Positions 3,184-59,327 of a DNA stretch of 64,000 nt are shown here, one piece after another. The position numbers and the translations under genes were made by a program. This stretch comes from Zhihengliuella salsuginis (GTDB lineage: Bacteria > Actinomycetota > Actinomycetes > Actinomycetales > Micrococcaceae), in assembly GCF_014651715.1 (NCBI RefSeq), contig NZ_BMXK01000012.1, positions 1-64,000 of the forward strand. Reading direction: 5' to 3'. Under the pieces are notes generated by a model that was given only the letters and a program-made list of their open reading frames with translations, was not told where the DNA came from and did not search any database. Positions within the stretch are counted from its first letter, which is position 1. Every line of letters starts with the position of its first letter.

Positions 3184-5025
3184 ATGGATTCTGCAGGGGT
3201 GGATAAGGGACGATTCGTTCGTCCTTCGCGAATGGGGGGAATATTGTCTAATTACTTGTTGCTGGTTGCTCGACGAGAGTGGCGTGACCGGTGTCGTTCT
3301 ATGCTCGGTGGCGACTCGGAATCAACACAACATGTGACACTTTCCTTGAATGCAGGATTCGACCTTCATTATGTTTCTAGGGGAGCACAGGGGGAGCTGG
3401 ATGCAGACGCTAGGATGATCTTTCGGGGTCACGCAATCGATGCGGATCACGAGAGTATGGTCTTCGGCCTGCCAGGTGTCCAGGAGTTCGAGGCCTCGAC
3501 TGGCCTCAGATTTGACCTTCAGTCCTATGAGGGCTGTTATGTGCACGCTCGATGGAATGAGACCAAGCTGACGGTTGTCAATGACCTTTTTGCTTTATGC
3601 TCGATGGCGCATACGGCCGGGAGCGGCTTCGCTGCGATTTCTGATTCTGTATTCACGCTGACTCGAGTTCGCGAAGCATTCGGCGCAGGTAACAAATTAA
3701 ACGCCTCGTCGGCTATTGCCAGAACGTGGGGCAACGCCATGGGCGGCCAGTTGTTGAGCGATAGCACCGTTTTTGATGCGGTTAATTATTCATCTGTCGG
3801 ATCCAAGGTAGTAATTGAGGCGGGATCTGACGCGAGTCTGCATGTCGTACGGCTCCCTTGCGACAACGTCTTTCCGCCCCTCGAGGGTGATTACAGCGAG
3901 TCGCTCCGTCGAGCAGCCATCAACTTCTCTGCCACGTTGCGTGCGGCGGCTTCGACGGGTGAGTATGCGCTGAGGTTGGCATTATCTGGTGGCCTGGATT
4001 CTAGGGTCTGTCTCGCCGCCGTACTGCTAGACCAGCAGACTCGCAAGAATACGGTGTTGAACTGTACAAACACCAATCCATCGCATCGGCGTGACTATGA
4101 GGTTGTCTCGGCTCTCGCGACACATTTCGATTTCCAGCTCGGAATGCCAGATGGAGCGCCGCGCCCGGCACCGGTGAAAAGGTTCAACGAAACACTGGGT
4201 TTATGGTATCTCTCCAACGCAGGAATATACGACTTCTTGGTATTGCCCGGATATGAATCTTCCGGAGCTGGAACATTTACGGTGGGCGGGCATGGCGCCG
4301 AACTACATAAGGGTAACTTCGGATGGCGGCCGGTACAAAGGATAATCCAGAATATCGGAGAGCCGAACGTGGCTGCCGCCGTTGGCCAAGAGGTTGAAAC
4401 GGCCTTGGCTGCCTACGGCGTCGATCCGTATTCGGATATCGGATCCGAGTGGCATTACCTCTACTATCGAAATGCTCTCCATTCAGGGAGATTCAGTGTG
4501 ACGAGTATGACGGGGCTCCGGCCGTTCATGAGTCGAGAGCTTGTGCGACTGAGTAGATCGGAGCGAGCGCCCTATTCGAAGCCGACCAAGGCAGATTTGA
4601 GCGTCATCAACGAAATGCTCCTGCTCCTTTCACCTGACGCTGCTGCCTTTGAGTTCGATGATCGAGCGAAGAATATGGACCATGATTTCGTGAGAACCCG
4701 CGTCCGTGAGCTTGGTGGGCCGATCGGTCTTGGCGAGATACCCGAGTACCGTACTTATGGGGATCCAGCGTCGGTTAACAGCGGCTTTGCTCAACCGCTC
4801 GCCCGACTGGTGAGTGATGTTGGACTCTGGCACCGGGCTACGCGGGAGCAACTGACTGAGGCTTGTCGGGACGGATTCGACGGGATTACGGTGCCCGAGA
4901 TTAGAGAAGCATATGAACCTGTTCTCCGAGAGGCCGAGGCTAAGCTGGGCGATGAGGGCCTGTCCTTTATGCAAATGCGCGGTTCAGTCGGAAAGCTGCT
5001 AACTCTTGGTCTCGCTAATTCTTGA
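3184..5025 (+). CDS. Asparagine synthetase-like amidotransferase homologue lacking the glutaminase Cys
   Basis: The protein has 613 residues. The ATP-pyrophosphatase loop SGGLDS is at residues 268-273, with the surrounding ALRLALSGGLDSRV context of class B asparagine synthetases. The N-terminal region keeps the outline of an Ntn glutaminase fold (YEGCYVHARWN, then TVVNDLFALCSMAH), but there is no Met-Cys-Gly start, so glutamine hydrolysis should be lost. AsnB-like proteins in surface polysaccharide clusters can convert uronic acids to uronamides (WbpS/WbtH type). Ammonia-dependent amidation, or amide-bond formation on another acid, are both possible. ATG 3184 is the first in-frame start after a stop, but its ribosome site is weak; ATG 3232 is an alternative. 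It shares the low-GC composition of the two genes before it, after a 154-base gap. Confidence 0.7.
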   Translation: MDSAGVDKGRFVRPSRMGGILSNYLLLVARREWRDRCRSMLGGDSESTQHVTLSLNAGFDLHYVSRGAQGELDADARMIFRGHAIDADHESMVFGLPGVQEFEASTGLRFDLQSYEGCYVHARWNETKLTVVNDLFALCSMAHTAGSGFAAISDSVFTLTRVREAFGAGNKLNASSAIARTWGNAMGGQLLSDSTVFDAVNYSSVGSKVVIEAGSDASLHVVRLPCDNVFPPLEGDYSESLRRAAINFSATLRAAASTGEYALRLALSGGLDSRVCLAAVLLDQQTRKNTVLNCTNTNPSHRRDYEVVSALATHFDFQLGMPDGAPRPAPVKRFNETLGLWYLSNAGIYDFLVLPGYESSGAGTFTVGGHGAELHKGNFGWRPVQRIIQNIGEPNVAAAVGQEVETALAAYGVDPYSDIGSEWHYLYYRNALHSGRFSVTSMTGLRPFMSRELVRLSRSERAPYSKPTKADLSVINEMLLLLSPDAAAFEFDDRAKNMDHDFVRTRVRELGGPIGLGEIPEYRTYGDPASVNSGFAQPLARLVSDVGLWHRATREQLTEACRDGFDGITVPEIREAYEPVLREAEAKLGDEGLSFMQMRGSVGKLLTLGLANS

Positions 5026-16016: not shown

Positions 16017-17069
16017 ATGGCCGGTCTTGACGGCATGGGGGATGGGTACAACGACGAGCCGAAGCGGCGGAAGCGGCGTTCCGGGGTCATTGCGCTCATC
16101 GCCGTACTGACGGTGGTCGTGATGGCCGCGGGACTGGCCCTCGGCTATCTCTTCAGCCTCAAGAACAGCTTCGATCAGAAATCGCAGTCCATCGAATCCG
16201 CATTTCCTACCGCGGATCGGCCAGATCGTTCCGAGGAGAGCGAAGACGCGATCAACTACCTCGTCATCGGCTCCGACAGCCGCGGCGGGAGCGGCGAGAC
16301 CGAGAACCTGCCTGATGTGCCCAACGGCGGACGTGCCGACACGATGATGCTGGTCAACATCCCCGGTGACCGCAAGAGCATCAACGTCATGTCCATCATG
16401 CGCGATACGTGGGTTGAGATCCCCGGTCATGGGGAACACAAGATCAATGCGGCGCTCGCCCTGGGTGGCGTCCCCCTGCTGGTCCAGACGATCGAATCCG
16501 TGGTGGATGCTCCCGTCGACCACATCGCGATCATCGACTTCGAAGGCTTCAAGTCGTTGACGGAATCCCTCGGCGGCGTGGAAGTGAACAATCCGCGGGC
16601 CTTCACCGTCAGCGGGGGCGAGCAGTCCTACTCCTACGAGGCAGGCCCCATCACACTCGAAGGCGATCGTGCCCTTCGCTTCGTCAGGGAGCGCAAGCAG
16701 TTCACGGACGGCGACTATACGCGGGTCGCGAACCAGCAGCTCTTCCTGAAGGCCGTCATGGCTCGATTCCTCACGCAGGAGACGCTGACCGACCCCGGTA
16801 AGATCTCGAGCATCGTCGACAACTTCTCGCCCTACGTGACGGTCGATGAGGACGTCGACGCGTTCGGGCTCGGTCAGCTCGGTTTGAGCCTGCGGAACGT
16901 CCGGACGGGCGATGTCCACACCTTCACCCTGCCGAACCGGGGGACCGGCCGTTCGTCCGATGGGCAGTCGATCGTCCTCCATGACCCCGCGGCTACACAC
17001 CAGGTCTCGGAGGCTCTCAAGTCGGACACGTTGACGACTTACATCGAGAATCAAGGTCTCGAGAACTAG
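16017..17069 (+). CDS. LytR-CpsA-Psr (LCP) family ligase, first copy
   Basis: LCP enzymes transfer lipid-linked glycopolymers to peptidoglycan on the outer membrane face. This 350-residue protein has a basic cytosolic tail, one membrane helix (about residues 22-47) and the extracellular LCP domain with VIGSDSRGG, GRADTMMLVNI, SIMRDTWVEIPGHG and IIDFEGF; the conserved Asp and Arg residues that hold the pyrophosphate are present. The start ATG is fixed by AAGGAG. It heads block B and is clearly paralogous to the LCP gene at 36101. The divergent 89-base gap to DUF3515 should hold its promoter, but no convincing -35/-10 pair was found. Confidence 0.92.
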   Translation: MAGLDGMGDGYNDEPKRRKRRSGVIALIAVLTVVVMAAGLALGYLFSLKNSFDQKSQSIESAFPTADRPDRSEESEDAINYLVIGSDSRGGSGETENLPDVPNGGRADTMMLVNIPGDRKSINVMSIMRDTWVEIPGHGEHKINAALALGGVPLLVQTIESVVDAPVDHIAIIDFEGFKSLTESLGGVEVNNPRAFTVSGGEQSYSYEAGPITLEGDRALRFVRERKQFTDGDYTRVANQQLFLKAVMARFLTQETLTDPGKISSIVDNFSPYVTVDEDVDAFGLGQLGLSLRNVRTGDVHTFTLPNRGTGRSSDGQSIVLHDPAATHQVSEALKSDTLTTYIENQGLEN

Positions 17070-17253
17070 TCCCCGGGGTGGCCTATCTGGCCGTTCTCCG
17101 AGACGCAAGATATTCTCGACGAGTTGCTGTGACACGAAAACGGCAACTGGAGGCCGTCCTCATGTCGATACGGCCGTCAACGGAAGGCAGTGCGCTACAC
17201 GTGCTTGAACACGAACGAGGCCGGGAGATTCCGGGCCGAGGTGATGGCCCCCG

Positions 17254-18993
17254 ATGAAACGGTTGCTGGCCAAACGGCACACCCTTCGTCGTCACTGGAA
17301 AGAGGATTCCGTCGCGTTCGTCGAACGTCTCTGGCGCAGGCGGGCGACGCCCACCGCGGAACGACTTCTCGGGTTTTTCGACGCGGGTTTGGGATCTTTC
17401 CCATCTCTGACGGCATCATCGATGGTCTCCTTGTTGGCCGGTAACGCCGACGAGATCGCCCATCGCCTGCGGACTGCTCTTGCAAAGGGGCCCCGAGGTG
17501 CGAAGGCCCGAAATCTGGCTAATATCGCTTTGGCGGCCGATCAGCCGCAGATTGCCGGCATTTTCGCCGCCCGCATGGATGATGTCGAGGGCAGAGACCT
17601 CACCCTGGCGAAACTCGAGTTCTACAACGGCCACACTACTGCGGCGATCCAGCGTCTCAATCCGACGAGCCGACGTCTCAGCCGCCTCCGGGACCGCTAC
17701 GCAGCCGAACGTGATGTCTTCGGCGATTGGGCTCCATCCGTTGCCCCCGTAGATGATTACACACCGCGGGATCAAGTTGTGCTCCACCTCCTGACCAATT
17801 CCCTTCCCTACACGGCGACCGGATACACCCGGCGATCACAATCGTTCCTGAAGGCACAGGCCGAGGAAGGGTGGGAGGTCCACGCGGTAACGCGGCTCGG
17901 ATATCCCGAATCGCTCGGATTCGTGCAAGCCCCTCGGAAGCAACGCATCGACGACGTCACCTACCACAGATTGGTGGTCAAGGGCGCTGTCCCCAACCTC
18001 CGCGATCGTCTCCAGGCGGAGACGGAACGCCTGCTTGATCTCGTCCGGGTGCTCAAGCCGGAAGTTCTGCACACCACGACTCACTTCGTGAATGGATTGG
18101 TTGTCCGCGCAGTCGCGGAAGCCGTGGGAGTCCCGTGGGTGTACGAGGTCCGTGGCCAACTTGCTGATACGTGGGCGTCGAAGCGCGGGCCGGAGGCAGT
18201 GTCCTCCGAACGCTACAAGCGTTTCAACATCCGCGAAGGCGAGGTCATGAGGGACGCCGACCTGGTGCTGACACTGGGGGCGTCCATGCGCGACAGGATC
18301 GTCGAATATGGTGTTCCACGAGAGCGCATCCGTCTGGTGCCGAACGCGGTGGGGGCGGACTTTCTATCAACTCCAACAAGTGCCCGACAAGCCAAGGCGA
18401 AGCTCGGCATCGACCCGGACAAGCTGTACATAGGCACGGTCTCGTCCCTTGTTGCCTATGAGGGAATCGACGATTTGCTGACCGCCTATTCGCTCCTTCG
18501 TCGACGACGGGACGACGTACGCCTTCTCATCGTCGGCAGTGGTGCCGCTATGCAGGAACTGCGGCTTCACGCAGCGGAAGTCGGTCTGGACCCGGCGGAC
18601 ATCTTCGTCGGCCGGGTATCGACGTCCGATGCAGTCCGGTATCACGGGGCGTTGGACATTTTCGTCGTACCTCGCAAGGACTTTGCCGTCACACGTTCCG
18701 TCACGCCTCTGAAACCGGTCGAGGCGATGGCATCCTGCCGTCCGGTCGTCGCCTCCGATCTCCCGGCATTGAGGGAGACTGTCGACGACGGCATCAATGG
18801 GCTCCTCGTTCCGGCGGAGGACCCTGAGGCCTTGGCCCGCGCCATCGATAGACTCGCTGACAATGCAGAACTGCGGGAGCGCATGGGATTCACCGGGCGC
18901 AAGTTCGTCCTCAGCACGCGGACCTGGAAGCGAAACGCCGAGCTGTGCGTTGATCTTTACGCGACGCTCAGACACCATCAGGAGTCTTCATAG
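17254..18993 (+). CDS. GT4-like glycosyltransferase with N-terminal helical domain
   Basis: The 579-residue protein has an N-terminal helical, TPR-like region (1-165) ending in RLRDRYAAERDVF. The GT-B N-lobe follows (VLHLLTNSLPYTATGYTRRS from about residue 177), then YEVRGQLADTWAS, RLVPNAVG and SVTPLKPVEAMASCRPVV. The same layout and motifs occur in the protein at 38451, and more distantly at 112. ATG 17254 has GAGGTGAT upstream. The stop overlaps the permease start by one base, with the permease ribosome site inside this gene. It probably adds a sugar to the block B polymer; donor and acceptor unknown. Confidence 0.87.
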   Translation: MKRLLAKRHTLRRHWKEDSVAFVERLWRRRATPTAERLLGFFDAGLGSFPSLTASSMVSLLAGNADEIAHRLRTALAKGPRGAKARNLANIALAADQPQIAGIFAARMDDVEGRDLTLAKLEFYNGHTTAAIQRLNPTSRRLSRLRDRYAAERDVFGDWAPSVAPVDDYTPRDQVVLHLLTNSLPYTATGYTRRSQSFLKAQAEEGWEVHAVTRLGYPESLGFVQAPRKQRIDDVTYHRLVVKGAVPNLRDRLQAETERLLDLVRVLKPEVLHTTTHFVNGLVVRAVAEAVGVPWVYEVRGQLADTWASKRGPEAVSSERYKRFNIREGEVMRDADLVLTLGASMRDRIVEYGVPRERIRLVPNAVGADFLSTPTSARQAKAKLGIDPDKLYIGTVSSLVAYEGIDDLLTAYSLLRRRRDDVRLLIVGSGAAMQELRLHAAEVGLDPADIFVGRVSTSDAVRYHGALDIFVVPRKDFAVTRSVTPLKPVEAMASCRPVVASDLPALRETVDDGINGLLVPAEDPEALARAIDRLADNAELRERMGFTGRKFVLSTRTWKRNAELCVDLYATLRHHQESS

Positions 18994-19883
18994 TGGAAGT
19001 TGGAAGCGGCGACGGGGCACCCTCGTCTGTGCCGACATTGGTGGACGTCACGGGGATGCACGAGCGCGGAGGCCGTCCCGCGTTCGTGGACTATCTTGTA
19101 CGCGTTTGGGACGCTCGCAGTTTCATGCTGCACGAAGCACGGTCGAAAGTGGACGAAGCGGGCAAGCGGCAGTACCTGGGCAATCTCTGGCTCATCATCA
19201 ACCCGATCCTCGACGGTGCGATGTTCTACTTCGTCTTCGGCGTCATCCTGAACATTGAGAAGGGCATTCCCAACTTCATCGCCTTCCTGCTCGTCGGCGT
19301 CTTCTTCTTCCAACTGACGTCCAAGTCGGTAAATTCCGCCGCCGCAACTCTCCTGAATTGGAAGAAGAACACCTCCGGTGCCCCACTACCGCCAATCACC
19401 GGGCCACTGAGCGCCGTGGTAAGGGTCTGGTTGACGGGATTTCCGAGCTACGTGGTCATGGTCGTCATGATCTTCGCTATTTCTCCGCCGGAACAGATCA
19501 GTTGGATTGTCCTCCTGGTCTTGCCGGTCATCGGGCTGCAGATCATGTTGGCGACCGGCATCGCTCTGGTCTCGGCCCATTTTGTCGGCCTTGTGCCCGA
19601 CGTGCAGAATCTCCTCCGAGCGGCGACTCGGGCCTGGATGTTCGGGTCGGGCGTCATGTTCGCTGCTGATCGGTTCCTCGGCGTACATCCCATCATTGAT
19701 TTCTTGGTGCATTGGAACCCCATGTACTGGGTCCTCGAATACGTTAGGTCTGCATTGGTCTACAACGAAGTACCCGTGGGCGAGGGCTGGTACATCATGG
19801 CGTTGTGGGCGGTGCTTCCCTTACTCGTCGGGTCATGGTTGATCTGGCGCCAGAGCGACAACTACGGGATGAACGGGGGCTGA
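18993..19883 (+). CDS. wzm: ABC-2 type polysaccharide export permease (Wzm-like), first copy
   Basis: The 296-residue membrane protein has about six hydrophobic segments. NLWLIINPILDGAMFYFVFG follows an amphipathic N terminus and is the hallmark of Wzm/TagG-type permeases. It is a clear paralogue of the permease at 58295: both share a RSF-containing entry helix, LNPIL/INPIL, GIPNF/NIPNF and a late WNPMYWVLEYVR/LNPLFCVLDITR segment. GTG 18993 overlaps the upstream stop, with AGGAG 8 bases before it. The next gene, one base after the stop, encodes an ATPase homologue without catalytic motifs, so this permease may depend on another ATPase. Confidence 0.88.
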   Translation: MEVGSGDGAPSSVPTLVDVTGMHERGGRPAFVDYLVRVWDARSFMLHEARSKVDEAGKRQYLGNLWLIINPILDGAMFYFVFGVILNIEKGIPNFIAFLLVGVFFFQLTSKSVNSAAATLLNWKKNTSGAPLPPITGPLSAVVRVWLTGFPSYVVMVVMIFAISPPEQISWIVLLVLPVIGLQIMLATGIALVSAHFVGLVPDVQNLLRAATRAWMFGSGVMFAADRFLGVHPIIDFLVHWNPMYWVLEYVRSALVYNEVPVGEGWYIMALWAVLPLLVGSWLIWRQSDNYGMNGG

Positions 19884-19884
19884 C

Positions 19885-20697
19885 GTGAATCGACAGACAA
19901 GAGTCCGTCCAACGCTGCTGCTGCACGAAGTCTCCGCGTCAAAGCATCAAGGGCGCGGCAAGAGTGAGTTCACGGCCAAACTGAACACCTTGACATTCAT
20001 GGCATTGCCCGGCGAATCGGTAGGGATTCTCGGCAGTCGACGCGACGGCGCCCAACTGGTGACTGAGCTTGTCGCCGGCAGCAAAGACCCCGAGCAGGGA
20101 AAGATCTATATTGATGGTGACCCCGTCGTCCTGGACGCTCCCGGTGCCTTCCTCTCCGAGGAAACGTTGCGGTTCAATGCCGTCAGGTTCGCCATGGCTC
20201 ACGGGATGAGCGGGCAACGCGTCCGGAGCGCTGTCGCCATCGTGGCTCAGGAAGCGGCACTCGACGACGCGGTTTTCGATGACCAAGTTCGCAACATCGA
20301 CCATCAGACTGTAGAGCGGGTGCGGTTCTACTTGGCGTTGGCCACGGGAACCAAGGCACTCGTCATCGACGACTCTGAGGTCCTGTTTGAACTGCTCCAG
20401 AACGAGTGGGAGCAGAAGAAGGTGGAGGCCTTCTACGGACGTGGCGGCTCAATGATTCTGGTCAGCAATGACATTCGTCACTTGAGTCCATTGGCGGGGC
20501 GTATTTGCTGGCTCCACGAAGGGAACTTCATCATGGATGCGGAGACTGCCACCGTTAAGCGTTGGCGAACTCAGTTGGCAAAGGCCGAACGCGAAAAGGA
20601 CACCAAGCGCGCGGGTCAGCTGGTGCGTCGATTCCAAGCTGAGTACGAACCACCGGCGCTCTCGCTCAGGGGGAACGCCAGAAGGCGCACGACATAG
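19885..20697 (+). CDS. Degenerate Wzt-like ABC protein (predicted pseudo-ATPase)
   Basis: The 270-residue protein aligns with the intact Wzt at 57445 but has lost every catalytic motif. Walker A is GSRRDGAQL (residues 50-58; the Lys and Ser are Ala56 and Gln57). The signature SSGM is DHQT (139-142). The Walker B Glu is Asp163 (ALVIDDSE). The H-loop His is Asn195 (LVSNDIRHL). From signature to H-loop the spacing to the intact protein is constant, so the fold is probably retained. There is no frameshift or premature stop: the frame is open over its full length, with a GTG start one base after the permease. It could be a structural or regulatory partner in a heteromeric exporter. A basic, helical tail of about 45 residues follows the ABC domain. 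Confidence 0.8.
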   Translation: MNRQTRVRPTLLLHEVSASKHQGRGKSEFTAKLNTLTFMALPGESVGILGSRRDGAQLVTELVAGSKDPEQGKIYIDGDPVVLDAPGAFLSEETLRFNAVRFAMAHGMSGQRVRSAVAIVAQEAALDDAVFDDQVRNIDHQTVERVRFYLALATGTKALVIDDSEVLFELLQNEWEQKKVEAFYGRGGSMILVSNDIRHLSPLAGRICWLHEGNFIMDAETATVKRWRTQLAKAEREKDTKRAGQLVRRFQAEYEPPALSLRGNARRRTT

Positions 20698-20802
20698 ACG
20701 ATCGGTATATCTGCTGACAGCGGATCTTCATTTGACCCGGCTGCCGGCGACCGGGGCAGATTCTCCTCAACGCCATCCGTATCTACGACGACAGAAAGCC
20801 TC

Positions 20803-23800
20803 ATGAGTATCGACAAGTCCTACTCCGGTTCTCCTCTCGACCGAGCGCTGGCCTACAGCCTGACCGAGAACAAAGATTCGGTCGTCGAAGAGTTCCTTCG
20901 GTTGCGTTCGAGCGAGGCCTCTCTGGCCAAGCGTGCGCAGTCCCTCGAGCGTGCGCTGCAGCAATCCAAGGCCGATCAAGCGCAGCTGAAGCAGGATCTG
21001 GAGAGACTCTCCCGCCGAAACGAGCGGCTTCGGGAGCTGTACGACAATCAGACGGCACGCGTCGAAAAGTTCAAGGCGGCCTACGAGAGGCTGCGCGACG
21101 ATCCCGCGATCAAAGTCTCGAAGGCCGTCGCGCGCCCTCAAGCGATTGCGGCCAGGCTCTGGACGAAGGCCCGGGGTGCTGGCAGGTCGGCACCAGGCAA
21201 CCAAGCTGAAAAGCCAATGTCCGTGACATCAGGCCCCCCGTCCGGCGGTATCCACGCTGCCTCGTCGAGTTCGGTTCCCTTTGCACCCAGTACCGGCGGC
21301 GGCCCGGCTGAAGTCACGTGCAAGTCTCTGCTGGCCGACGCTCGACAGGCTTACTTCGTTCGCGGCGGCGTTCTCGCAGCCCGCGACATACTGGCACGGA
21401 TGCCTGACGATGACGGATTCGAAGGCTCCGGCTATGAACCGACTGATCGCGATCGCTCGTTTATCGATCAAGTCCACGGTCTTGCGCGTTTCGTCGACAG
21501 TCTGCCGTACGTCCCGCCGCAAAGCAGCACACCCGGATATCAGCCCGTCGCGCGGCGCATCATGTACTGCGCCCACAGCACCGGCGAATTCAATTCGAAC
21601 GGATACTCGACCCGAACCTCGGGGCTGGTCAGCGGGCTCGCCGCCAACGGCGAAGACGTGTTCGTCGCGGCCCGGCCGGGATATCCGTGGGACAGCAAGA
21701 CAAGTGGCCCCTCGCTGGAGACGAAGCGGTCCAACCGGATTCACGAGGGTGTGCGATACGTCTACAACCCGGGGCCGAATGTCGCCCGGACCCCGCTCGA
21801 CACATACCTGCATCAGGCGGCGGATGCGTACGTCCGCGAAGCTGTGATCAACCGGCCCGCACTTATCCAGAGCGCCTCGAATCATCTCACCGCGCTGCCG
21901 GCCCTGCTGGCGGCCCGCCGCCTCGGTGTTCCCTTCGTCTACGAAGTCCGTGGCCTCTGGGAGATCACCGAGGCGGCCGCCAAGGGCGAGGCATGGACGT
22001 CGACCGAGAAGTTCGGCATCGCCCGTGACCTCGAATCGCTCGTGGCCCGGGAGGCGGACCAGGTCCTGGCCATCACGGAGGAGGTGCGTGACGAACTCAT
22101 CCGTCGGGGTGTTTCAGCGGACCGCATCCGGTTGGTCCCGAATGCCGCGGACCCTGCCAAGTTCGTTCCCGTCTCCCGCGACCGGTCGCTCGCCGCGAGG
22201 CTCGGGATCGAACCGGGGCACTTCGTCATCGGCTACGCGGGCAGCATGGTGTCCTACGAGGGTCTCGATCTCCTCGTCGATGCCTTCGCAGAGTTGGCTG
22301 ATCGAAATCCGGATGCCCGACTGCTCCTGGTCGGTGACGGGCCTTCCCTGGAGTCCTTGAAGCGACAGGTCAGGGAGCTGGACCTGATGTCGAGGGTCGT
22401 GTTCACGGGACGGGTCGATTCGGGCGACATTCCCGCATACCTGAGCCTCTTCGATGCGGCGCCGTGCCCCCGTGTGAGCAATGTCGTCACGGAGATGGTT
22501 TCACCCTTGAAACCCCTCGAGGCGATGGCCGCAGGCATCGCCGTCGTCGGCTCCGACGTCGCTCCGCTGAGGCATCTCCTCGGTGCAGTTGGGGAGAGGG
22601 GTCTCCTGTTCGACGCCGGGAACGCGGCGCACCTGGCGGAACGGCTCGCGGAGTTGATGGATGACGAATCGCTGAGAGCCGACCTGGGCAGAGCCGCACG
22701 GTGGTGGACGGTGCACGAACGTTCGTGGGAGGCCATCGCCGACCGGGTCGCCGCGGCCCACGCTCCGCTTCTCGCGGCCGTGGAAACGGGTGGGTCCCGC
22801 CCCGGCCTGGAGTCGGGGCGCGAGCGGCCTCTCGCCTCCATTCGCCTCGGCATCATTGCTGACGAGTTCACGACCAAGAGCCTCGAAGCAGAATGCGATC
22901 TGGTCCCCATGGACCGGGACACCTGGGGCCGGCAGCTCGATGAGGACGGGATCGACGCCCTGCTGGTCGAATCGGCGTGGGAAGGCAACGGCGGCCAGTG
23001 GCGACGGGGTGTCGGCTTCTATACCGACGAAGAATTCGAACCGCTGCGCTCACTCCTCGCCACCTGTCGCGAACGGGGGATCCGGACGATCTTCTGGAAT
23101 AAAGAGGACCCGGTCCACATCGACCGGTACGTTCCGACTGCAGCGCACTTCGACCACGTCTTCACGACGGATGCCGACTGCATTCCGCGGTACGCGTCCG
23201 GGAGAGATACCAAATCGATCGCCGCACTGCCGTTCTTCGCGCAACCGCAGCTGCACAATCCGACGCCGAGCGCACGAGACTACGATCATTCGGTCGCCTA
23301 CGGCGGTTCCTACTACGGTGACCGTTACCCGGACCGCTCGAAGGAGCTGGCTCGGATGCTCGGAGAGATCAGCGAGCACGGTCTGACGATCTACGACCGC
23401 CAGGTGAACCATCCGGGAAGCCCCTACCAGTTCCCGGGCGCGCTCGCTCCCTTCGTGCAGGGCGGGTTGCCGTATGCGGAGATGGTGGAAGCGTACAAGT
23501 CCCACCCCGTGCATGTGAATGTGAATTCCGTCGCCACGTCGCCGACGATGTTCTCGCGACGGGTGATGGAGCTTGCGGCGTGCGGAACTCCGATCATCAC
23601 GGGATCGGGGACGGGGGTGCCGACGTTCTTCGCGCCCCACCTGCCCTTGGCAACGAGCCCGGGGGAGGCGGGCCTCCTCGCGAACTACTGGCTGAACAAC
23701 GAAGGTGGACGGAACCATGACGCGTGGGTCCTCCACCGGCTGGTCTACCGGGCGCACCTGGCCGGGCACCGGCTCGCGCTCATGCTGCGCACGGCGGGAA

Positions 23801-25269
23801 TCCCAGTCGCGGGCCCCCGTCTGGACGACTACGCCCTCATTCTCGACGACGTGTCGGAGCAGACCGCTGGGGACGTGCTGCGCCAGACCCACCGGCCTTC
23901 CGTCGTCGTCTGCGCAGGCGGCGACGGCCCCGGGGCTGACCTGCTGGTGCGTGCCGGCGTTCAGGTCCTGTCCGAGGTCCCGGAAGGGCTGCTGACGGCG
24001 TGGTTCGGCCCGTATCTCGGTGACGACCTCCTCGGGGAGGACCTCTGCCGCGGTGCATGGCTGAAGTCCCTCACCGGCGATTCGACTACCCGAACGGTCC
24101 AGGCCGGACCGCGTGACCTGTCGACTCCCGGGCATGCGCTCATCGAGGAAGGTATCGCGGAAGAGGGGTGGCCCTGGCTGGGGGCAGAACCGGTCGACGG
24201 GGAACGTGTCGTCCTGCTCCGCCGCGAGTTGACCACGCGAACGTCGGCGGAGGAGGCCGCCGCCGAGGTGTCTCAGCCGGCGTCGCAGACGATCCTCGTC
24301 GCCGGCCACGACCTCAAATTCGCGGGGTCGCTGATCGGGCGCCTGCGCGGGCGCGGCCACAGGCTCCTGTTCGACGAATGGGAGGACCACGGGAAACACG
24401 ATCCGGAGGTCAGCCACCGGCTGCTCGAGCAGGCGGACATCGTTTTCTGCGAGTGGTCGCTCGGAAATGCCGAGTGGTACGCCCGGAACTGCAGGGACGG
24501 CCAGCGTCTGGTGGCGCGCTTCCACTCGCAGGAGCTTTTCACTCCATACCCGGAGCGCACCCAGCTCGGACGGATCGACCAGACCGTCTTCGTCGGCGGT
24601 CTTGTGGAGCAGATGGCGACGTCCCGGTACCGGTACGCCCGCGGGACGACCGTCGTCGTACCTAACGCCGTCGACAGTTCCTACTTCGGGTCGGACAAGG
24701 CGGACGGGGCACGGTTCAACCTCGGACTGGTCGGCATCGTTCCGATGCAGAAGCATCTCGACCGCGCGCTGGATGTGCTCGCCGAGCTGCGCAGGCACGA
24801 CGACCGCTACCAGTTGTTCGTCAAAGGCCGGACACCAGAGGACTATCCGTGGATGCTCAAACGCGAACGCGAGATGGCCTACTACGATGCCCAGCAGTCC
24901 CGAATCCAGAACGACCCGCTGCTGCGCGGAGCCGTCCATTTCGACGGTCACGGTGATGACATGCCCGAGTGGTACCGGAAGATCGGGATTGTGCTGTCGG
25001 TCAGCGATTTCGAGTCGTTCCATCTGACCCTGGCCGACGGCGGCGCCTCCGGGGCGCTGCCCGTCTCCTTGGCATGGCCCGGCGCGGAGCAGATCTATCC
25101 TGAGCACTGGCTCCACCTCACGACGGACGATATGGCCGCCACCATCGCCGCCGTGGTGGGCGACGATGAGGCCTACGCCAGTGCGACGGAGCACGCCCGC
25201 CAGTACTGTCGTCGGTTCGAGGAATCAGCGGTCCTCGACCAGCTGGAAGCCGTGGTTGTCGGCCCGTAG
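20803..25269 (+). CDS. Giant multidomain glycosyltransferase (coiled coil plus three GT-like units)
   Basis: The protein has 1488 residues. Residues 35-105 form a coiled coil rich in Leu, Glu, Lys and Arg, and a Pro/Ser-rich linker follows. Residues about 240-640 are a GT4 unit (VYEVRGLWEITEAA, VPNAADPAKFVP, VSPLKPLEAMAAG). Residues about 685-1130 are a CgeB-like second unit (HVNVNSVATSPTMFSRRVME at about 905-925, then LAACGTPIITG). Residues 1164-1488 are a GT-like module beginning ILVAGHDLKF, which also occurs in the proteins at 41154 and 55691. No membrane segment is seen. Fusion of several transferases suggests processive assembly of a repeat or linkage unit, as in multidomain capsule and teichoic-acid polymerases; which units are active is unknown. 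It ends block B. Confidence 0.85.
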   Translation: MSIDKSYSGSPLDRALAYSLTENKDSVVEEFLRLRSSEASLAKRAQSLERALQQSKADQAQLKQDLERLSRRNERLRELYDNQTARVEKFKAAYERLRDDPAIKVSKAVARPQAIAARLWTKARGAGRSAPGNQAEKPMSVTSGPPSGGIHAASSSSVPFAPSTGGGPAEVTCKSLLADARQAYFVRGGVLAARDILARMPDDDGFEGSGYEPTDRDRSFIDQVHGLARFVDSLPYVPPQSSTPGYQPVARRIMYCAHSTGEFNSNGYSTRTSGLVSGLAANGEDVFVAARPGYPWDSKTSGPSLETKRSNRIHEGVRYVYNPGPNVARTPLDTYLHQAADAYVREAVINRPALIQSASNHLTALPALLAARRLGVPFVYEVRGLWEITEAAAKGEAWTSTEKFGIARDLESLVAREADQVLAITEEVRDELIRRGVSADRIRLVPNAADPAKFVPVSRDRSLAARLGIEPGHFVIGYAGSMVSYEGLDLLVDAFAELADRNPDARLLLVGDGPSLESLKRQVRELDLMSRVVFTGRVDSGDIPAYLSLFDAAPCPRVSNVVTEMVSPLKPLEAMAAGIAVVGSDVAPLRHLLGAVGERGLLFDAGNAAHLAERLAELMDDESLRADLGRAARWWTVHERSWEAIADRVAAAHAPLLAAVETGGSRPGLESGRERPLASIRLGIIADEFTTKSLEAECDLVPMDRDTWGRQLDEDGIDALLVESAWEGNGGQWRRGVGFYTDEEFEPLRSLLATCRERGIRTIFWNKEDPVHIDRYVPTAAHFDHVFTTDADCIPRYASGRDTKSIAALPFFAQPQLHNPTPSARDYDHSVAYGGSYYGDRYPDRSKELARMLGEISEHGLTIYDRQVNHPGSPYQFPGALAPFVQGGLPYAEMVEAYKSHPVHVNVNSVATSPTMFSRRVMELAACGTPIITGSGTGVPTFFAPHLPLATSPGEAGLLANYWLNNEGGRNHDAWVLHRLVYRAHLAGHRLALMLRTAGIPVAGPRLDDYALILDDVSEQTAGDVLRQTHRPSVVVCAGGDGPGADLLVRAGVQVLSEVPEGLLTAWFGPYLGDDLLGEDLCRGAWLKSLTGDSTTRTVQAGPRDLSTPGHALIEEGIAEEGWPWLGAEPVDGERVVLLRRELTTRTSAEEAAAEVSQPASQTILVAGHDLKFAGSLIGRLRGRGHRLLFDEWEDHGKHDPEVSHRLLEQADIVFCEWSLGNAEWYARNCRDGQRLVARFHSQELFTPYPERTQLGRIDQTVFVGGLVEQMATSRYRYARGTTVVVPNAVDSSYFGSDKADGARFNLGLVGIVPMQKHLDRALDVLAELRRHDDRYQLFVKGRTPEDYPWMLKREREMAYYDAQQSRIQNDPLLRGAVHFDGHGDDMPEWYRKIGIVLSVSDFESFHLTLADGGASGALPVSLAWPGAEQIYPEHWLHLTTDDMAATIAAVVGDDEAYASATEHARQYCRRFEESAVLDQLEAVVVGP

Positions 25270-44908: not shown

Positions 44909-45092
44909 TCGCGAGGCCCTTCGCACCGGATCAGCTGACGCCGAATGTGATTCTGCACCGCGCGTTTGTCGTGCCGGAGCCAGTGCCTTGCCCGGTGCTA
45001 GTCTGGTGGAGATCGACGCGCGCAACGCGCCCGGGCGCAGAGCGGATGCGATTCTAGGCCCGGTTTTTCAACGTGAAGGATGGAACGTACTG

Positions 45093-46394
45093 GTGAAGAT
45101 CGCAGTGATCGCACTCGGCAAGATTGGGCTGCCGCTGGCGGTGCAGTTCGCCACGAAGGGCCACGAGGTAGTCGGCGTGGATGTGAACCAGAACGTGGTT
45201 GATCTGGTCAACGAGGGGCGGGAGCCGTTCCCGGGCGAGTATCAGCTGCAGGAGAAGCTGGCTGAGACCGTCGGCAACGGTTCCTTGCGTGCTACGAGCG
45301 ACTACGGCGATGCCGTTCCGGGCGCAGACGCCGTCGTTCTCGTGGTTCCGCTGTTCGTCGACTCCGATGCCAAACCCGATTTCGGGTGGATGGACGCAGC
45401 GACGACGGACCTGGCCGAGCACCTGACTCCCGGCACGCTGGTCTCCTATGAGACGACCCTGCCGGTGGGCACCTCTCGTACCCGGTGGAAGCCGATGCTG
45501 GAGGCCGGGTCCGGCCTGGTCGAGGGCGAGGATTTCCACGTGGTGTTCTCACCGGAGCGTGTACTGACGGGCCGCGTCTTCGCGGATCTCCGGAAGTACC
45601 CCAAGCTCATCGGTGGACTGGGCGATGCCGGTGCACTGCGGGCGAAGGAGTTCTACGAGTCCGTGCTGGACTTCGACGACCGCGAGGACCTGGCGCGGCC
45701 CAACGGCGTGTGGGACCTCGGCAGCGCCGAGGCATCTGAACTGGCGAAGCTCGCCGAAACGACGTATCGAGACGTGAACATCGGCCTGGCCAATCAGTTC
45801 GCGCGGTATGCCGGCGAGAACGGCATCGACATCTACAAGGTCATCGAGGCCTCGAATTCGCAGCCGTACAGTCATATCCACCGTCCCGGCATCGCCGTCG
45901 GAGGGCACTGCATCCCGGTCTACCCCCGGCTGTACCTCTGGAATGACCCCGAGGCCTCGATCGTGCGGACCGCCCGCGCCGCGAACGCGGATATGCCGGC
46001 CTTCGCCGTCGGCATGTTGGCGGGTGTCCACGGCGACCTGGCCGGTCAGCGCGTCGTCGTCCTGGGTGCTGCCTATCGTGGAGGCGTGAAGGAGACCGCG
46101 TTCTCCGGCGTATTCGCCACGGTGGACTCGCTCAAGGAGCGCGGGGCGGTGGTCCTGGTGCATGATCCGCTCTACACGGATGAGGAGCTCGAGAGCCTCG
46201 GCTTCACTGCCTACCATCTGGGGGAGGCGGCCGACGCGGCCGTCATCCAGACCGATCACGCCGACTACAGGGAGCTGAGTCCGGCGGATCTTCCGGGCGT
46301 TCGATCGCTCGTGGACGGGCGCAACATGACCGACCCGCAGAAGTGGAGCGGCGTCGCGCATCGCGTCATCGGGCTGCCACCGAAGAACGCTTAG
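45093..46394 (+). CDS. wbpA: UDP-N-acetylglucosamine/UDP-ManNAc 6-dehydrogenase (WbpA/WecC type)
   Basis: The 433-residue protein begins at GTG 45093 (KIAVIALGKIGLPLAVQFA); a longer frame from 44988 has no conserved residues. The NAD-binding loop is at the N terminus, and the catalytic Cys is in RPGIAVGGHCIPVYPRL. It oxidises the C6 of a UDP-HexNAc to the uronic acid with two NAD. It lies directly before WbpD-, WbpE- and WbpB-like genes, which favours UDP-GlcNAc as substrate (WbpA role) over UDP-ManNAc. A 184-base gap upstream may hold a promoter, though no convincing -35/-10 pair was found; it has a small GC hairpin near 45015. Confidence 0.87.
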   Translation: MKIAVIALGKIGLPLAVQFATKGHEVVGVDVNQNVVDLVNEGREPFPGEYQLQEKLAETVGNGSLRATSDYGDAVPGADAVVLVVPLFVDSDAKPDFGWMDAATTDLAEHLTPGTLVSYETTLPVGTSRTRWKPMLEAGSGLVEGEDFHVVFSPERVLTGRVFADLRKYPKLIGGLGDAGALRAKEFYESVLDFDDREDLARPNGVWDLGSAEASELAKLAETTYRDVNIGLANQFARYAGENGIDIYKVIEASNSQPYSHIHRPGIAVGGHCIPVYPRLYLWNDPEASIVRTARAANADMPAFAVGMLAGVHGDLAGQRVVVLGAAYRGGVKETAFSGVFATVDSLKERGAVVLVHDPLYTDEELESLGFTAYHLGEAADAAVIQTDHADYRELSPADLPGVRSLVDGRNMTDPQKWSGVAHRVIGLPPKNA

Positions 46395-46410
46395 CGACGA
46401 GGAGCATCAC

Positions 46411-47019
46411 GTGAGTGAATCGGGCGTTTTCGCTGCAGACGGGGCCGACGTCTCGGCCGATGCCAGCATCGGCGCGGGAAGCAAGATCTGGCATCTGGCC
46501 CAGGTCCGGGAGCAGGCGAGTCTGGGCCGCAACTGCATTATCGGCCGGGGTGCCTACGTCGGCACCGGCGTGAGCATGGGGGAGAACTGCAAGGTCCAGA
46601 ACTACGCGCTGGTGTACGAGCCGGCGCTGCTTGAAGACGGCGTCTTCATCGGCCCGGCCGTTGTGCTGACCAACGACACCTACCCCCGCGCGATCAACGC
46701 CGACGGGTCCCAGAAGTCCGCGTCCGATTGGGATGCTGTGGGCGTCACCATCCGCCGTGGCGCGTCCATCGGCGCGCGTTCGGTGTGCGTCGCCCCCGTG
46801 GAGATCGGCGCCTGGAGCCTGGTCGCCGCCGGTTCCGTGGTCACGGCCGACGTACCCGCGCACGCGCTGGTGGCCGGCGTTCCGGCCCGCCGAATCGGCT
46901 GGGTGGGGACCACCGGCCGCAAGCTTGAAGAACATGATGGTCGCTGGATCTGCCCGGACACGGGCGAGACGTACCGCGAGGTCGGCGACGCACTGGTGAA
47001 GGAAGAGGAGACACCATGA
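46411..47019 (+). CDS. wbpD: Hexapeptide-repeat UDP-sugar N-acetyltransferase (WbpD/WlbB type)
   Basis: The 202-residue protein is a left-handed beta-helix built of hexapeptide repeats (ASIGAGSKIWHLAQVREQ, CIIGRGAYVGTGVSMG, VFIGPAVVLTND). It ends with a short tail (WICPDTGETY). The layout matches WbpD/WlbB, which acetylate the 3-amino group of UDP-GlcNAc3NA. GTG 46411 has GAGGAG upstream. It overlaps the aminotransferase gene by 4 bases, fixing the pathway operon. Confidence 0.87.
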   Translation: MSESGVFAADGADVSADASIGAGSKIWHLAQVREQASLGRNCIIGRGAYVGTGVSMGENCKVQNYALVYEPALLEDGVFIGPAVVLTNDTYPRAINADGSQKSASDWDAVGVTIRRGASIGARSVCVAPVEIGAWSLVAAGSVVTADVPAHALVAGVPARRIGWVGTTGRKLEEHDGRWICPDTGETYREVGDALVKEEETP

Positions 47020-48119
47020 CTGAATTCATCCCGCCGGCCAAACCGATCATCGGCGACGAGGAGCGCGCGGCCGTGGACCGGGTGCTGCGCAGCGGAATGG
47101 TCGCCCAGGGCCCCGAGGTAGCCGCGTTCGAGGAGGAGTTCGCGCGAGAGCTCGTCGAGGGGCGGGACTGCGTGGCCGTGAACTCGGGCACCTCCGGTCT
47201 GCATCTGGGGCTGCTGGCAGCGGGGATCGGCGAAGGTGACGAGGTCATCGTTCCGGCGTTCACGTTCGCTGCAACGGGAAATTCAGTACGTCTGGCCGGA
47301 GCGACACCTGTCTTCGCGGACATCGAACTGGACACCTACACGTTGGATCCGGCCCATGTCGAGTCACTGATCACGGGCCGTACCAAGGCCATCATGCCGG
47401 TGCACCTGTACGGTCATCCTGCCCGGATGGACGAGCTGGCCGCGATTGCCGAGAAGCACTCGCTGATGCTGTTCGAGGACGCGGCCCAGGCCCACGGTGC
47501 GAAATGGAGAGGCCGCGCGGTCGGCACGTTCGGCGCGTTCGGGATGTTCAGCCTCTATCCGACGAAGAACATGACCAGCGGCGAGGGCGGCATGGTCTCC
47601 GTGGACTCGGAGGACATGCGCCGGCGGATGCGCCTGCTGCGCAATCAGGGCATGGAGACCCAGTACCAGAACGAGCTCATCGGGTTCAACAACCGGATGA
47701 CCGACATCCACGCCGCGATCGGACGCGTGCAGTTGACCAAGGTCGCGGCATGGACGAAGCAGCGCCAGGAGAATGCGGCTGTTCTCGACGCCGGTCTCAA
47801 GCACGTCAAGACGCCGGTGGTGCTCGAAGGCGCGGTACACGTCTACCACCAGTACACCGTCCGCCTGCCCGAGGATCTGGTCTCGAAGAGGTCGGAGATC
47901 CTGTCCCGGTTGAAGGATGAATTCGGTGTGGGCACGGGCGTGTACTACCCGGTGCCGACAAACGAGCTTCCGTCCTTCGGAGTCGAGGCGGACCTGCCGG
48001 CGACTCGTGAGGCGACGCGGTCCGTGTTCTCCCTTCCCGTGCACCCGTCCTTGAGCCCTGAGGATCTGCAGCGGATCATCCACGCCGTCAATACCGTCCT
48101 CGAGGAGGCGAGCGCATGA
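47016..48119 (+). CDS. wbpE: DegT/DnrJ/EryC1 aminotransferase (WbpE/WlbC type)
   Basis: The 367-residue PLP enzyme has NSGTSGLHLGLLAAGIGEGD, VPAFTFAATGNSV, FEDAAQAHGAKW and the PLP lysine in SLYPTKNMTSGEGG. It should convert the 3-keto-UDP-GlcNAcA made by the WbpB homologue into the 3-amino sugar using glutamate. Four-base overlaps on both sides place it between the acetyltransferase and the oxidoreductase. Length is normal for sugar aminotransferases. Confidence 0.9.
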   Translation: MTEFIPPAKPIIGDEERAAVDRVLRSGMVAQGPEVAAFEEEFARELVEGRDCVAVNSGTSGLHLGLLAAGIGEGDEVIVPAFTFAATGNSVRLAGATPVFADIELDTYTLDPAHVESLITGRTKAIMPVHLYGHPARMDELAAIAEKHSLMLFEDAAQAHGAKWRGRAVGTFGAFGMFSLYPTKNMTSGEGGMVSVDSEDMRRRMRLLRNQGMETQYQNELIGFNNRMTDIHAAIGRVQLTKVAAWTKQRQENAAVLDAGLKHVKTPVVLEGAVHVYHQYTVRLPEDLVSKRSEILSRLKDEFGVGTGVYYPVPTNELPSFGVEADLPATREATRSVFSLPVHPSLSPEDLQRIIHAVNTVLEEASA

Positions 48120-49099
48120 GCATCAGGACCGGCCTGATCGGCCTGGGCATGATGGGTCGCCACCACGCCCGTGTCATGCGCAGCATCGAGGGGACCGAGC
48201 TGGTCGCCGTCGCCGACCCCTTCGGCGACAAGCACGGTGCGGCAGCCGGCCTGCCGCTGTTCCAGACGGTCGAGGAGCTCATCGCCCACGGCGTGGACGC
48301 GGTGGTCTGCGCGGTCCCGACCGGACTGCACGAAGAGGTCGGGCTGAAGCTCGCCGCGGCGGGCGTGCACGTCATGGTGGAGAAGCCGATCGCCGAGAAC
48401 GTCGAGGCCGGCCAGCGGCTGGTCGATGCGTTCGACTCCGCCGGGCTCGTCGGCGCGGTTGGTCACATCGAACGCTTCAACCCGGCCCTGCAGCAGATGA
48501 GGAAGCGGATCGAGTCCGGCGAGCTGGGGGACATCTACCAGATCGCGACCCGTCGTCAGGGCCCCTTCCCGGCCCGTATTGCAGACGTCGGCGTCGTCAA
48601 GGATCTTGGAACCCACGACATCGACCTCACGGCGTGGATCGCCCAGTCCCCGTTCGCCGAGGTGAATGCCAAGACGTTCACTGCCTCCGAGCGTCCGCAC
48701 GAGGACATGATCGTCGCCACCGGCCGTCTTGCTTCCGGGGTGATCACCAACCACATCGTGAACTGGCTGTCGCCGATGAAGGAGCGCCTGACGATCGTCA
48801 CCGGCGAACGCGGCGCGTTCGTGGCGGACACTGTGACGGCGGATCTGACCTTCTACGAAAACGGCAGCGTTCCGACCGAATGGGACGCTTTGTCCGCCTT
48901 CCGTGGCGTCTCCGAGGGCAACGTCACCCGCTATGCCTTCGCCAAGGCCGAACCCCTCAAGACAGAGCACGAGGCTTTCCGCGACGGCATCCTCGGCAAC
49001 CGGAACGCCTACGTGTCCATGCGCGAGGGCCTGGATACGCTGCGCGTTGCCGAATCAATGCTCGAATCGGCTGACTCCGGCAGTAGTGTCCACCTATGA
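48116..49099 (+). CDS. wbpB: Gfo/Idh/MocA oxidoreductase (WbpB/WlbA type)
   Basis: The 327-residue protein has the N-terminal Rossmann loop GLIGLGMMGRHHARVM, the family EKPIAENVEAGQRL motif and GHIERFNPALQQM. It ends with a C-terminal alpha/beta domain that includes GTHDIDLTAWI. WbpB-type enzymes oxidise C3 of UDP-GlcNAcA. With the adjacent WbpA-, WbpE- and WbpD-like genes it completes synthesis of UDP-GlcNAc3NAcA. No C2-epimerase (WbpI type) is present in the window. ATGA overlaps join it to its neighbours. Confidence 0.88.
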   Translation: MSIRTGLIGLGMMGRHHARVMRSIEGTELVAVADPFGDKHGAAAGLPLFQTVEELIAHGVDAVVCAVPTGLHEEVGLKLAAAGVHVMVEKPIAENVEAGQRLVDAFDSAGLVGAVGHIERFNPALQQMRKRIESGELGDIYQIATRRQGPFPARIADVGVVKDLGTHDIDLTAWIAQSPFAEVNAKTFTASERPHEDMIVATGRLASGVITNHIVNWLSPMKERLTIVTGERGAFVADTVTADLTFYENGSVPTEWDALSAFRGVSEGNVTRYAFAKAEPLKTEHEAFRDGILGNRNAYVSMREGLDTLRVAESMLESADSGSSVHL

Positions 49100-50700
49100 G
49101 CCCCCAAGTCCCCAGACCGATTCGCAGCAGCGGACGGCAACTGGCCGGGGCCGTCGGCCGTGCCGCCCGCCGCTTCCCCAAGCCCGTCAAAAACGCTGGA
49201 CGAGAATTTTTTGACCTGTTGCCCGACAGCGACATGAAGCACCGCCTCGGACACGTCCTTCGTGGCACGCCAGCGGCGGGTCGGAAATACGCTCGCGGTG
49301 CGGCGTACAGCGACACCGACGTCCCCCTGGTCAACCGAGGCAGCACATACACCGCCGGCGAGGTCTCCACCTACCTGCAGCTCGAGGCCGCGTACCTGCG
49401 CCGTCGCCTGTTCGCCGTACAGGCGACCGCCCGTGCAGTCGGGAACGCAGCCGGCAGTCATGAGGACGACGCTGCGGCCGGTGTGCTCGTCGACGAATAC
49501 CTTCGGCTGGTTGACGTGGGGGAGGAAACGGAGGCCGGGGCGCACCTCGTCGTCGTGAACGTCTACCCGAGCGTGGGCAACGAATACGGCAACGGATTCG
49601 TCCACCGCCGCATCAAGTACTACCTCGAGGCTGGTGCAAGGGTCCACGTGGTGGTCATCGGCCCCGAAACCGAGTCGTCGGTATACCAATACGACGGCGT
49701 AACGGTCATCACAGGCGACGGTTCGGAGGCGCGGGAGCTGTTGCGCCGGACCACCTACCGCAGCGTCGGCGTCCACTTCATGGGCCGCTACATCTGGGAC
49801 CAGATCCAGGACGACCTCAAGGAGCAGACGTTCTTCTGCTTCATGCACGGGTTCGAGTCGCGCCGCTGGGTCCGCACCCGGTACAACTACCGTTCGCCGG
49901 ACCAGGTCGATGCTGCCATTGCCGACACCGTGGATCGGCAGGCCCTCTGGCGCGAGGTACTCGCCCACCCCTGGGGGCCGGTCAAGTTCGTGTTCGTTTC
50001 CGACTGGTGGCGCCGCGCTTCCCAAGAGGACATGGAGCTCGTCTACCCGGCAGCGCGCTCCGAGGTGGTGCACAACGTCATCGAGACCAAGTTGTTCCGC
50101 TACGTGCCCAAGGACCCGGAGCAGCGGTTCAGGCTCCTCTGGGTGCGTTCGGCCAGCAACTTCAACTACGGCAGCGACATCGCTATCGAGGTTCTGACGA
50201 AGCTGCGCGAGACCGCACACTGGGACCGGATCGAGGCCCGTATCATCGGTGACGGACGCCACTTCGGCGGATTCGAGTCGGCCTTCGAGGACGACGCGAA
50301 CATCACGGTCGAACGCCGGTTCGCCGCCCAGGACGAGATTGCTCGACTGCACCGCGACTACGGCGTCTTCCTGGTGCCCAGCCGGCTCGACTCGCAGGGT
50401 GTCTCGCGTGACGAGGCAATGGCCAGCGGGCTGGTTCCGGTGACCAACACGGTCAGCGCCATCCCGGAGTTCGTCGATGAGACCTGCGCCGTCCTTGCCC
50501 CGGGCGAGGACGCTGACGCCATGGTCGCCGGTCTGATCCGCCTGTTCGAGAACCCGGAGCTGTTCCGCCGGATGTCGTCCGCCGCAGCAGAACGAGCAGA
50601 GCGCCAGAGCGGCCCCGACGCGACCATCCGCAAGGAGATGAGGATGCTCGGTATCACCGCCGAGACCGTGGACCCGTCCAGTGAAGGGAGCCAGGCGTGA
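49096..50700 (+). CDS. Glycosyltransferase of the YGNGFVHRR type, second copy
   Basis: The 534-residue protein shares with the one at 43382 an otherwise unusual series: VVVNVYPSVGNEYGNGFVHR (about residue 150), CFMHGFESRRWVRT, FVSDWWRRASQEDM, WVRSASNFNYGSDI and SRLDSQGVSRDEAMASGLVP. The first 150 residues are basic and poorly conserved. The N terminus overlaps the oxidoreductase gene by 4 bases, which ties it to the GlcNAc3NAcA pathway. The next gene overlaps its stop (GTGA). Probably a retaining GT4-type enzyme; substrate inferred only from context. Confidence 0.86.
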   Translation: MSPQVPRPIRSSGRQLAGAVGRAARRFPKPVKNAGREFFDLLPDSDMKHRLGHVLRGTPAAGRKYARGAAYSDTDVPLVNRGSTYTAGEVSTYLQLEAAYLRRRLFAVQATARAVGNAAGSHEDDAAAGVLVDEYLRLVDVGEETEAGAHLVVVNVYPSVGNEYGNGFVHRRIKYYLEAGARVHVVVIGPETESSVYQYDGVTVITGDGSEARELLRRTTYRSVGVHFMGRYIWDQIQDDLKEQTFFCFMHGFESRRWVRTRYNYRSPDQVDAAIADTVDRQALWREVLAHPWGPVKFVFVSDWWRRASQEDMELVYPAARSEVVHNVIETKLFRYVPKDPEQRFRLLWVRSASNFNYGSDIAIEVLTKLRETAHWDRIEARIIGDGRHFGGFESAFEDDANITVERRFAAQDEIARLHRDYGVFLVPSRLDSQGVSRDEAMASGLVPVTNTVSAIPEFVDETCAVLAPGEDADAMVAGLIRLFENPELFRRMSSAAAERAERQSGPDATIRKEMRMLGITAETVDPSSEGSQA

Positions 50701-58290: not shown

Positions 58291-58294
58291 GCCA

Positions 58295-59179: not shown

Positions 59180-59327
59180 GGTCTTCGCTGACGCCTTTCG
59201 CTCGTGTGCCTGACCTACTCTAAGGCGTAAACGCTGGCGTCGACGTCGAAGACGCGCTGGTGCGGGCCGCACCTAGGCGCGATGGGTCCGGAATGACGGG
59301 CGAATTATCGGCTTCGTATCGTGAACG

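Follow-up and report, generated by a model that had tools for sequence, protein, structure and literature searches.

What can an ABC-ATPase homologue be doing beside its own permease once its ATP motifs are lost? The question is raised by an ORF (19885 to 20697, forward strand, as are all features below unless stated) in the window, by which we mean the whole 64,000-nucleotide stretch of Zhihengliuella salsuginis DNA that was analysed. The ORF encodes psi-Wzt, a 270-aa, predicted non-catalytic paralogue of the Wzt/TagH-type ABC-ATPases, recognized by alignment, a PDB match, AlphaFold2 modelling and a structure search. As the earlier note had stated, the frame is uninterrupted. It begins with GTG, one base past the stop of a Wzm gene (wzm2, 18993 to 19883), and spans 270 codons.

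The psi-Wzts were aligned with 27 intact Wzts, namely the catalytic paralogue encoded in the same genome (Wzt1, 57445 to 58290, reverse strand) and 26 others. In the psi-Wzt of the window, the Walker A motif GxNGSGKST is replaced by GSRRDGAQL (G50-S-R-R-D-G-A56-Q57-L58; 20032 to 20058) and the ABC signature YSSGM by IDHQT (I138-D-H-Q-T142; 20296 to 20310). The Walker B strand (20356 to 20373) reads ALVIDD for ILIIDE, with D163 in place of Glu, and the H-loop position (20467 to 20469) holds Asn195 for His. The alignment bears out the earlier note, which had read Ala56 and Gln57 for the Walker A Lys and Ser, DHQT for the signature, Asp in Walker B and Asn in the H-loop, and had found the spacing from signature to H-loop to match that of Wzt1 residue for residue: both motifs exhibit the same offset of 18 residues. 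Two further losses, absent from that note, are located at 19942 to 20013. The A-loop Tyr is replaced by K20, and the β1-β2 extension ("gate helix") is shortened. From the A-loop position to a conserved GE, this stretch measures 24 residues here and 42 in Wzt1, and it ranges from 24 to 27 residues in the eight known psi-Wzts against 31 to 60 in the 27 intact Wzts. In papers on solved structures (PMC6379404, PMC7078476), this stretch contains the Wzt gate helix or, in TarH, the gate loop, and these elements lie where the substrate enters.

The Pfam ABC_tran profile matches psi-Wzt with an E-value of 0.057, under the Pfam cut-off. Its closest solved relatives by sequence (phmmer against the PDB) are TagH/TarH/Wzt ATPases, with an E-value of 4.6e-12 for TagH (7dd0). 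An AlphaFold2 model, computed from an input alignment of 35 Wzt-like proteins, reached a pLDDT of 92.7 and a pTM of 0.88. TagH and WztN were the top matches of this model in Foldseek and VIA-align (WztN 6m96: Z 23.4, 221 residues, rmsd 3.0). Given the phmmer match to TagH and the structural matches of the model to Wzt and TagH, the homology to ABC-ATPases is not due to chance. As modelled, psi-Wzt keeps a complete Wzt/TagH-type nucleotide-binding-domain fold.

Full-length psi-Wzts were identified in 5/5 species of the source genus, 2/2 of a second genus and 1/3 of a third. The set thus comprises eight genomes (the source and seven orthologues) from three genera of one family. None of the eight exhibits the Walker A Lys, the A-loop Tyr, the signature Ser or the signature Gly. 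The Walker B Glu is present in two (G002 and G021, both reading DE), and the H-loop His in one (G002). Since the Glu remains in two psi-Wzts and the His in one, these residues appear to have decayed later or piecemeal within the clade. The idea that orthologues beside a Wzm gene share the non-catalytic residues thus holds in all eight for Walker A and the signature, and only partly for Walker B and the H-loop. The Ser-Gly of Walker A is replaced by Asp54-Gly55, invariant in 8/8, and Asp54 and Leu95 are conserved specifically in psi-Wzts.

In phylogenetic analysis the psi-Wzts form a single clade (support 100/100) with long branches. Their Wzm2 partners likewise form one clade (100/100), nested within the Wzm tree of the family. 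An order-wide profile search separated the psi-Wzts, with E-values below 1e-100, by a wide margin from all other matches, at 1e-37 or weaker; over the profile searches taken together, the non-psi matches reach 1e-42 at best, and the non-psi loci fetched have Walker A and signature intact. When 395 genomes of the class were searched with the profile, the source's own psi-Wzt was the only one found at an E-value of 1e-42, a peptide-pattern scan of genome contigs with this single protein gave one weak, unrelated match (L020), and tblastn against plasmids gave distant matches only, all below 60% identity. Among same-genus relatives the locus always carries a psi-Wzt and never an intact Wzt; intact Wzts in the same operon occur in more distant genera. 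The existence of a conserved pseudo-ATPase clade is well supported.

At the distances compared here, neutral sequence would be expected to exhibit a pN as high as pS. For psi-Wzt, pN/pS is 0.34-0.36 in the three closest genomes, at a pS of 0.71-0.78, where synonymous sites are saturated. For G000 and G002, between which dS is correctable, dN/dS comes to 0.14, a value that says no more than that the ratio is well below 1. These values indicate purifying selection. Compared with its neighbours, the gene evolves more quickly, with a higher pN/pS, and is still constrained. The earlier note had taken psi-Wzt for a maintained pseudo-ATPase rather than a decaying gene, and the ratios and the single clade across eight genomes and three genera agree with this. 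The constraint itself has shifted: mean pairwise identity in the ATP-contact columns is 0.94 among intact Wzts and 0.26 among psi-Wzts, against 0.50 and 0.34, respectively, in the other core columns.

The gene order gtA - wzm2 - psiwzt - gtB is found in all eight psi genomes. The first gene of this block, gtA (17254 to 18993), encodes a GT4 glycosyltransferase of 579 aa, and the conserved downstream partner gtB (20803 to 25269) a multi-domain glycosyltransferase of 1488 aa. A LytR-CpsA-Psr (LCP) glycopolymer-peptidoglycan ligase is encoded upstream of the block (16017 to 17069). The order in 24 further genomes of the family is gtA - wzm - wzt - glycosyltransferase - sugar-nucleotide dehydrogenase - gtB, with Walker A and signature present in the Wzt. 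As the same gtA and gtB enclose an intact pair in those genomes, the psi pair occupies the site where an active exporter normally stands. The divergence of psi-Wzt follows that of its neighbours, with mirror-tree correlations of 0.89 (wzm2), 0.88 (gtA) and 0.86 (gtB); these come from eight genomes only, and such agreement inside one operon partly reflects linkage and is complicated by recombination at the locus.

Wzm2, encoded directly upstream of psi-Wzt in 8/8 genomes, belongs to the ABC-2 permeases (PF01061, ABC2_membrane, 35.9 bits). The earlier note had called this permease apparently intact, but it is not an ordinary Wzm in every respect. The LGxxW of the LG-loop, the TM1 Pro and the TM4-5 Asp are all retained in 8/8; the LG-loop, Trp, Pro and TM4-5 Asp of Wzm have been tied to the channel entrance (PMC6379404). 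The coupling-helix FP(R/K) is lost in 8/8 (LP without a following Arg/Lys), as is the C-terminal EE; each is present in 17 other aligned Wzms of the family. Because of these two losses in Wzm2, both faces of the Wzm2/psi-Wzt interface appear to have changed together, judging from where the coupling helix lies (PMC7078476).

Each of the eight psi genomes also carries exactly one intact Wzm1/Wzt1 pair elsewhere in the genome; in the source, Wzm1 (58295 to 59272, reverse strand) is the permease partner of Wzt1. In ABC dimers, an ATP site combines the Walker A and B motifs from one subunit with the signature from its partner. Since psi-Wzt has neither Walker A nor signature, a psi homodimer would form no site and a psi-Wzt/Wzt1 heterodimer no complete one. 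ATP-driven work by a Wzm2-psiWzt complex is thus unlikely. By its sequence, Wzm2-psiWzt has the make-up of a Wzm/Wzt pair and yet lacks the features that define the ATPase.

The reading that we judge most likely, with a probability of about one in two, is that Wzm2-psiWzt is a non-catalytic platform for glycosyltransferases and that export is carried out by Wzm1-Wzt1. It is drawn from operon linkage and by exclusion. Wzm2 and psi-Wzt would derive from a duplicated Wzm/Wzt pair of the family that lost its ATP chemistry once, in the common ancestor; it may have arisen in situ, by duplication of the intact pair of the operon, or have been acquired. The pair would then have been retained as a non-catalytic membrane complex, in which psi-Wzt, no longer binding ATP, covers Wzm2 on its cytosolic side as a fixed structural part. 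Such a complex would recruit the products of gtA and gtB and keep them, together with the growing lipid-linked polymer, at the membrane, ATP-driven translocation being left to the separate Wzm1-Wzt1 exporter. That psi-Wzt has lost its ATP parts and is yet kept in eight species beside a permease and sugar enzymes suggests that its present role is to keep the machinery together and not to power polymer export. The broader statement that Wzm2-psiWzt is an exporter-derived complex working without ATP of its own, either as a membrane scaffold or as an ATP-independent polymer conduit, is somewhat more probable than the platform itself.

A pure scaffold would not need the channel-entrance residues that Wzm2 keeps, and these residues count in favour of a conduit, which we rank second. 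Wzm2 would be a putative polymer channel and psi-Wzt a fixed plug or frame, the drive coming from gtB-catalysed elongation or from LCP-ligation pulling outside. The loss of the gate helix would have removed an ATP-driven gate, and the glycosyltransferase genes share the block with the pair and diverge in step with it. An ATP-driven pair is, however, also kept in every psi genome, and the operon has no processive membrane synthase, gtA and gtB being of GT4 type. We consider such a conduit unlikely.

A mixed exporter, ranked third and less likely still, would join Wzm2/psi-Wzt to Wzm1/Wzt1 in an asymmetric heteromer with psi-Wzt as its degenerate half. In ABC exporters with degenerate sites, one site normally still works. 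Heteromeric exporters in which a single site is degenerate are a well-known class (PMC12038006, PMC5216877), and the strict co-occurrence of the psi pair with one intact pair in 8/8 genomes would suit such an assembly. In TM287/288 and MsRv1273c/72c, an ABC subunit has lost catalytic residues, as in psi-Wzt, but one complete site is kept per dimer; with Walker A and signature both gone from psi-Wzt, both composite sites would be incomplete. The intact paralogue is moreover encoded at a separate locus and does not co-diverge with psi-Wzt: the mirror-tree correlation is 0.24 (p = 0.11) with wzt1 and 0.10 with wzm1, again from eight genomes only, against 0.87 between wzt1 and wzm1. The Wzt1 sequences of G000 and G004 are 91% identical, whereas their psi-Wzts are 35% identical. 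Over the intact pair (57445 to 59272 compared with L031), these two genomes exhibit about 90% identity, and the identity to other species of the genus is about 50%. From these values the Wzm1/Wzt1 pair appears to have been exchanged horizontally between lineages. A classical heteromeric exporter, the frame in which the earlier note had discussed the degenerate sites, is accordingly disfavoured by the lack of both a complete ATP site and co-divergence.

The loss of catalytic residues with retention of the fold is typical of pseudoenzymes that have become allosteric partners. A regulatory psi-Wzt would sense the polymer or its lipid carrier and control the glycosyltransferases or the active exporter, Wzm2 being a membrane anchor only. 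The fold kept without catalytic residues fits this role, as do the new psi-specific residues Asp54 and Leu95. Psi-Wzt carries no added ligand-binding domain, and the evidence does not separate a regulator from a platform; we hold this role doubtful and place it below the mixed exporter. A decaying pseudogene or a sequencing artefact, to which the fast divergence, the long branches and the pN/pS above that of the neighbours might point and which the earlier note had allowed for, is rejected as highly improbable, since eight intact frames in independent assemblies form one clade, pN is far under pS at saturation and the model is well folded.

The nearest known counterparts of the proposed glycosyltransferase platform are the polysaccharide and teichoic acid exporters with Wzt/TagH-TarH ABC-ATPases, represented by Aquifex WzmWzt (6m96), Bacillus subtilis TagH (7dd0) and Staphylococcus aureus TarGH (9cfl). 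Psi-Wzt resembles these ATPases, which are its best matches in both sequence and structure, in fold, in its place beside a Wzm/TarG permease and in its glycopolymer operon. It differs from them by the absence of the A-loop Tyr, the Walker A Lys/Ser, the signature, the Walker B Glu, the H-loop His and the gate helix or loop. A catalytically dead partner kept in a polysaccharide pathway is likewise seen in EcpK, a tyrosine pseudokinase of Myxococcus exopolysaccharide synthesis (PMC12004946). Its fold and pathway are unrelated, and the likeness is an analogy only. In DrrABC, DrrA is taken as the ATP-binding subunit. This transporter, a putative ABC hetero-oligomer containing two different permeases (PMC11539658), offers another likeness, from which the psi operon differs in that its own ATPase is apparently dead.

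The literature searched, which excluded most subscription papers and is therefore weak evidence of absence, does not describe any Wzt/TagH clade in which every ATP motif is missing. If the complex does work without ATP of its own, as scaffold or as conduit, this would be, as far as that literature goes, the first known case of an ABC polysaccharide exporter turned into a machine other than a motor. Throughout this Wzt clade neither half of the ATP sandwich remains, nor does the substrate gate, and the gene is nonetheless under selection beside its own permease. The clade thus provides a natural experiment for telling the parts of Wzm and Wzt needed for structure and enzyme recruitment from those needed for the motor. 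It also calls for caution in annotation, as "Wzm plus Wzt" is not necessarily an exporter.

Several further features of these loci were observed. G002 and G003 (L026, L028) are close relatives, with recG 97% and dak 98% identical and dS of about 0.2. In the block (compared over 16017 to 25269 of the window), their psi-Wzts are 57% and their Wzm2s 63% identical with saturated synonymous sites, and gtB is 90% identical. The psi locus looks as if it had been exchanged by recombination, like a surface-antigen locus. Besides several glycosyltransferase domains, the gtB product has an N-terminus of weak coiled-coil-like character. Strong gtB homologues are present in 48 of 295 sampled genomes of the family; seven loci (L138, L139, L140, L143, L145, L151, L167) have a gtB homologue and no Wzm/Wzt within the fetched surrounding stretch. 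Four large open frames within glycopolymer clusters of the window (3184 to 5025, 50697 to 52886, 55691 to 57628 and 61807 to 62991) have no Pfam match at an E-value of 1e-5. The Wzm1/Wzt1 cluster in the window includes genes for a UDP-sugar dehydrogenase, a hexapeptide acyltransferase, an aminotransferase and an oxidoreductase. At 44988 to 49099, genes for a UDP-sugar dehydrogenase, a hexapeptide acyltransferase, a DegT aminotransferase and a GFO/IDH/MocA oxidoreductase are arranged in a row, which resembles a pathway for a di-N-acetylated uronic acid.
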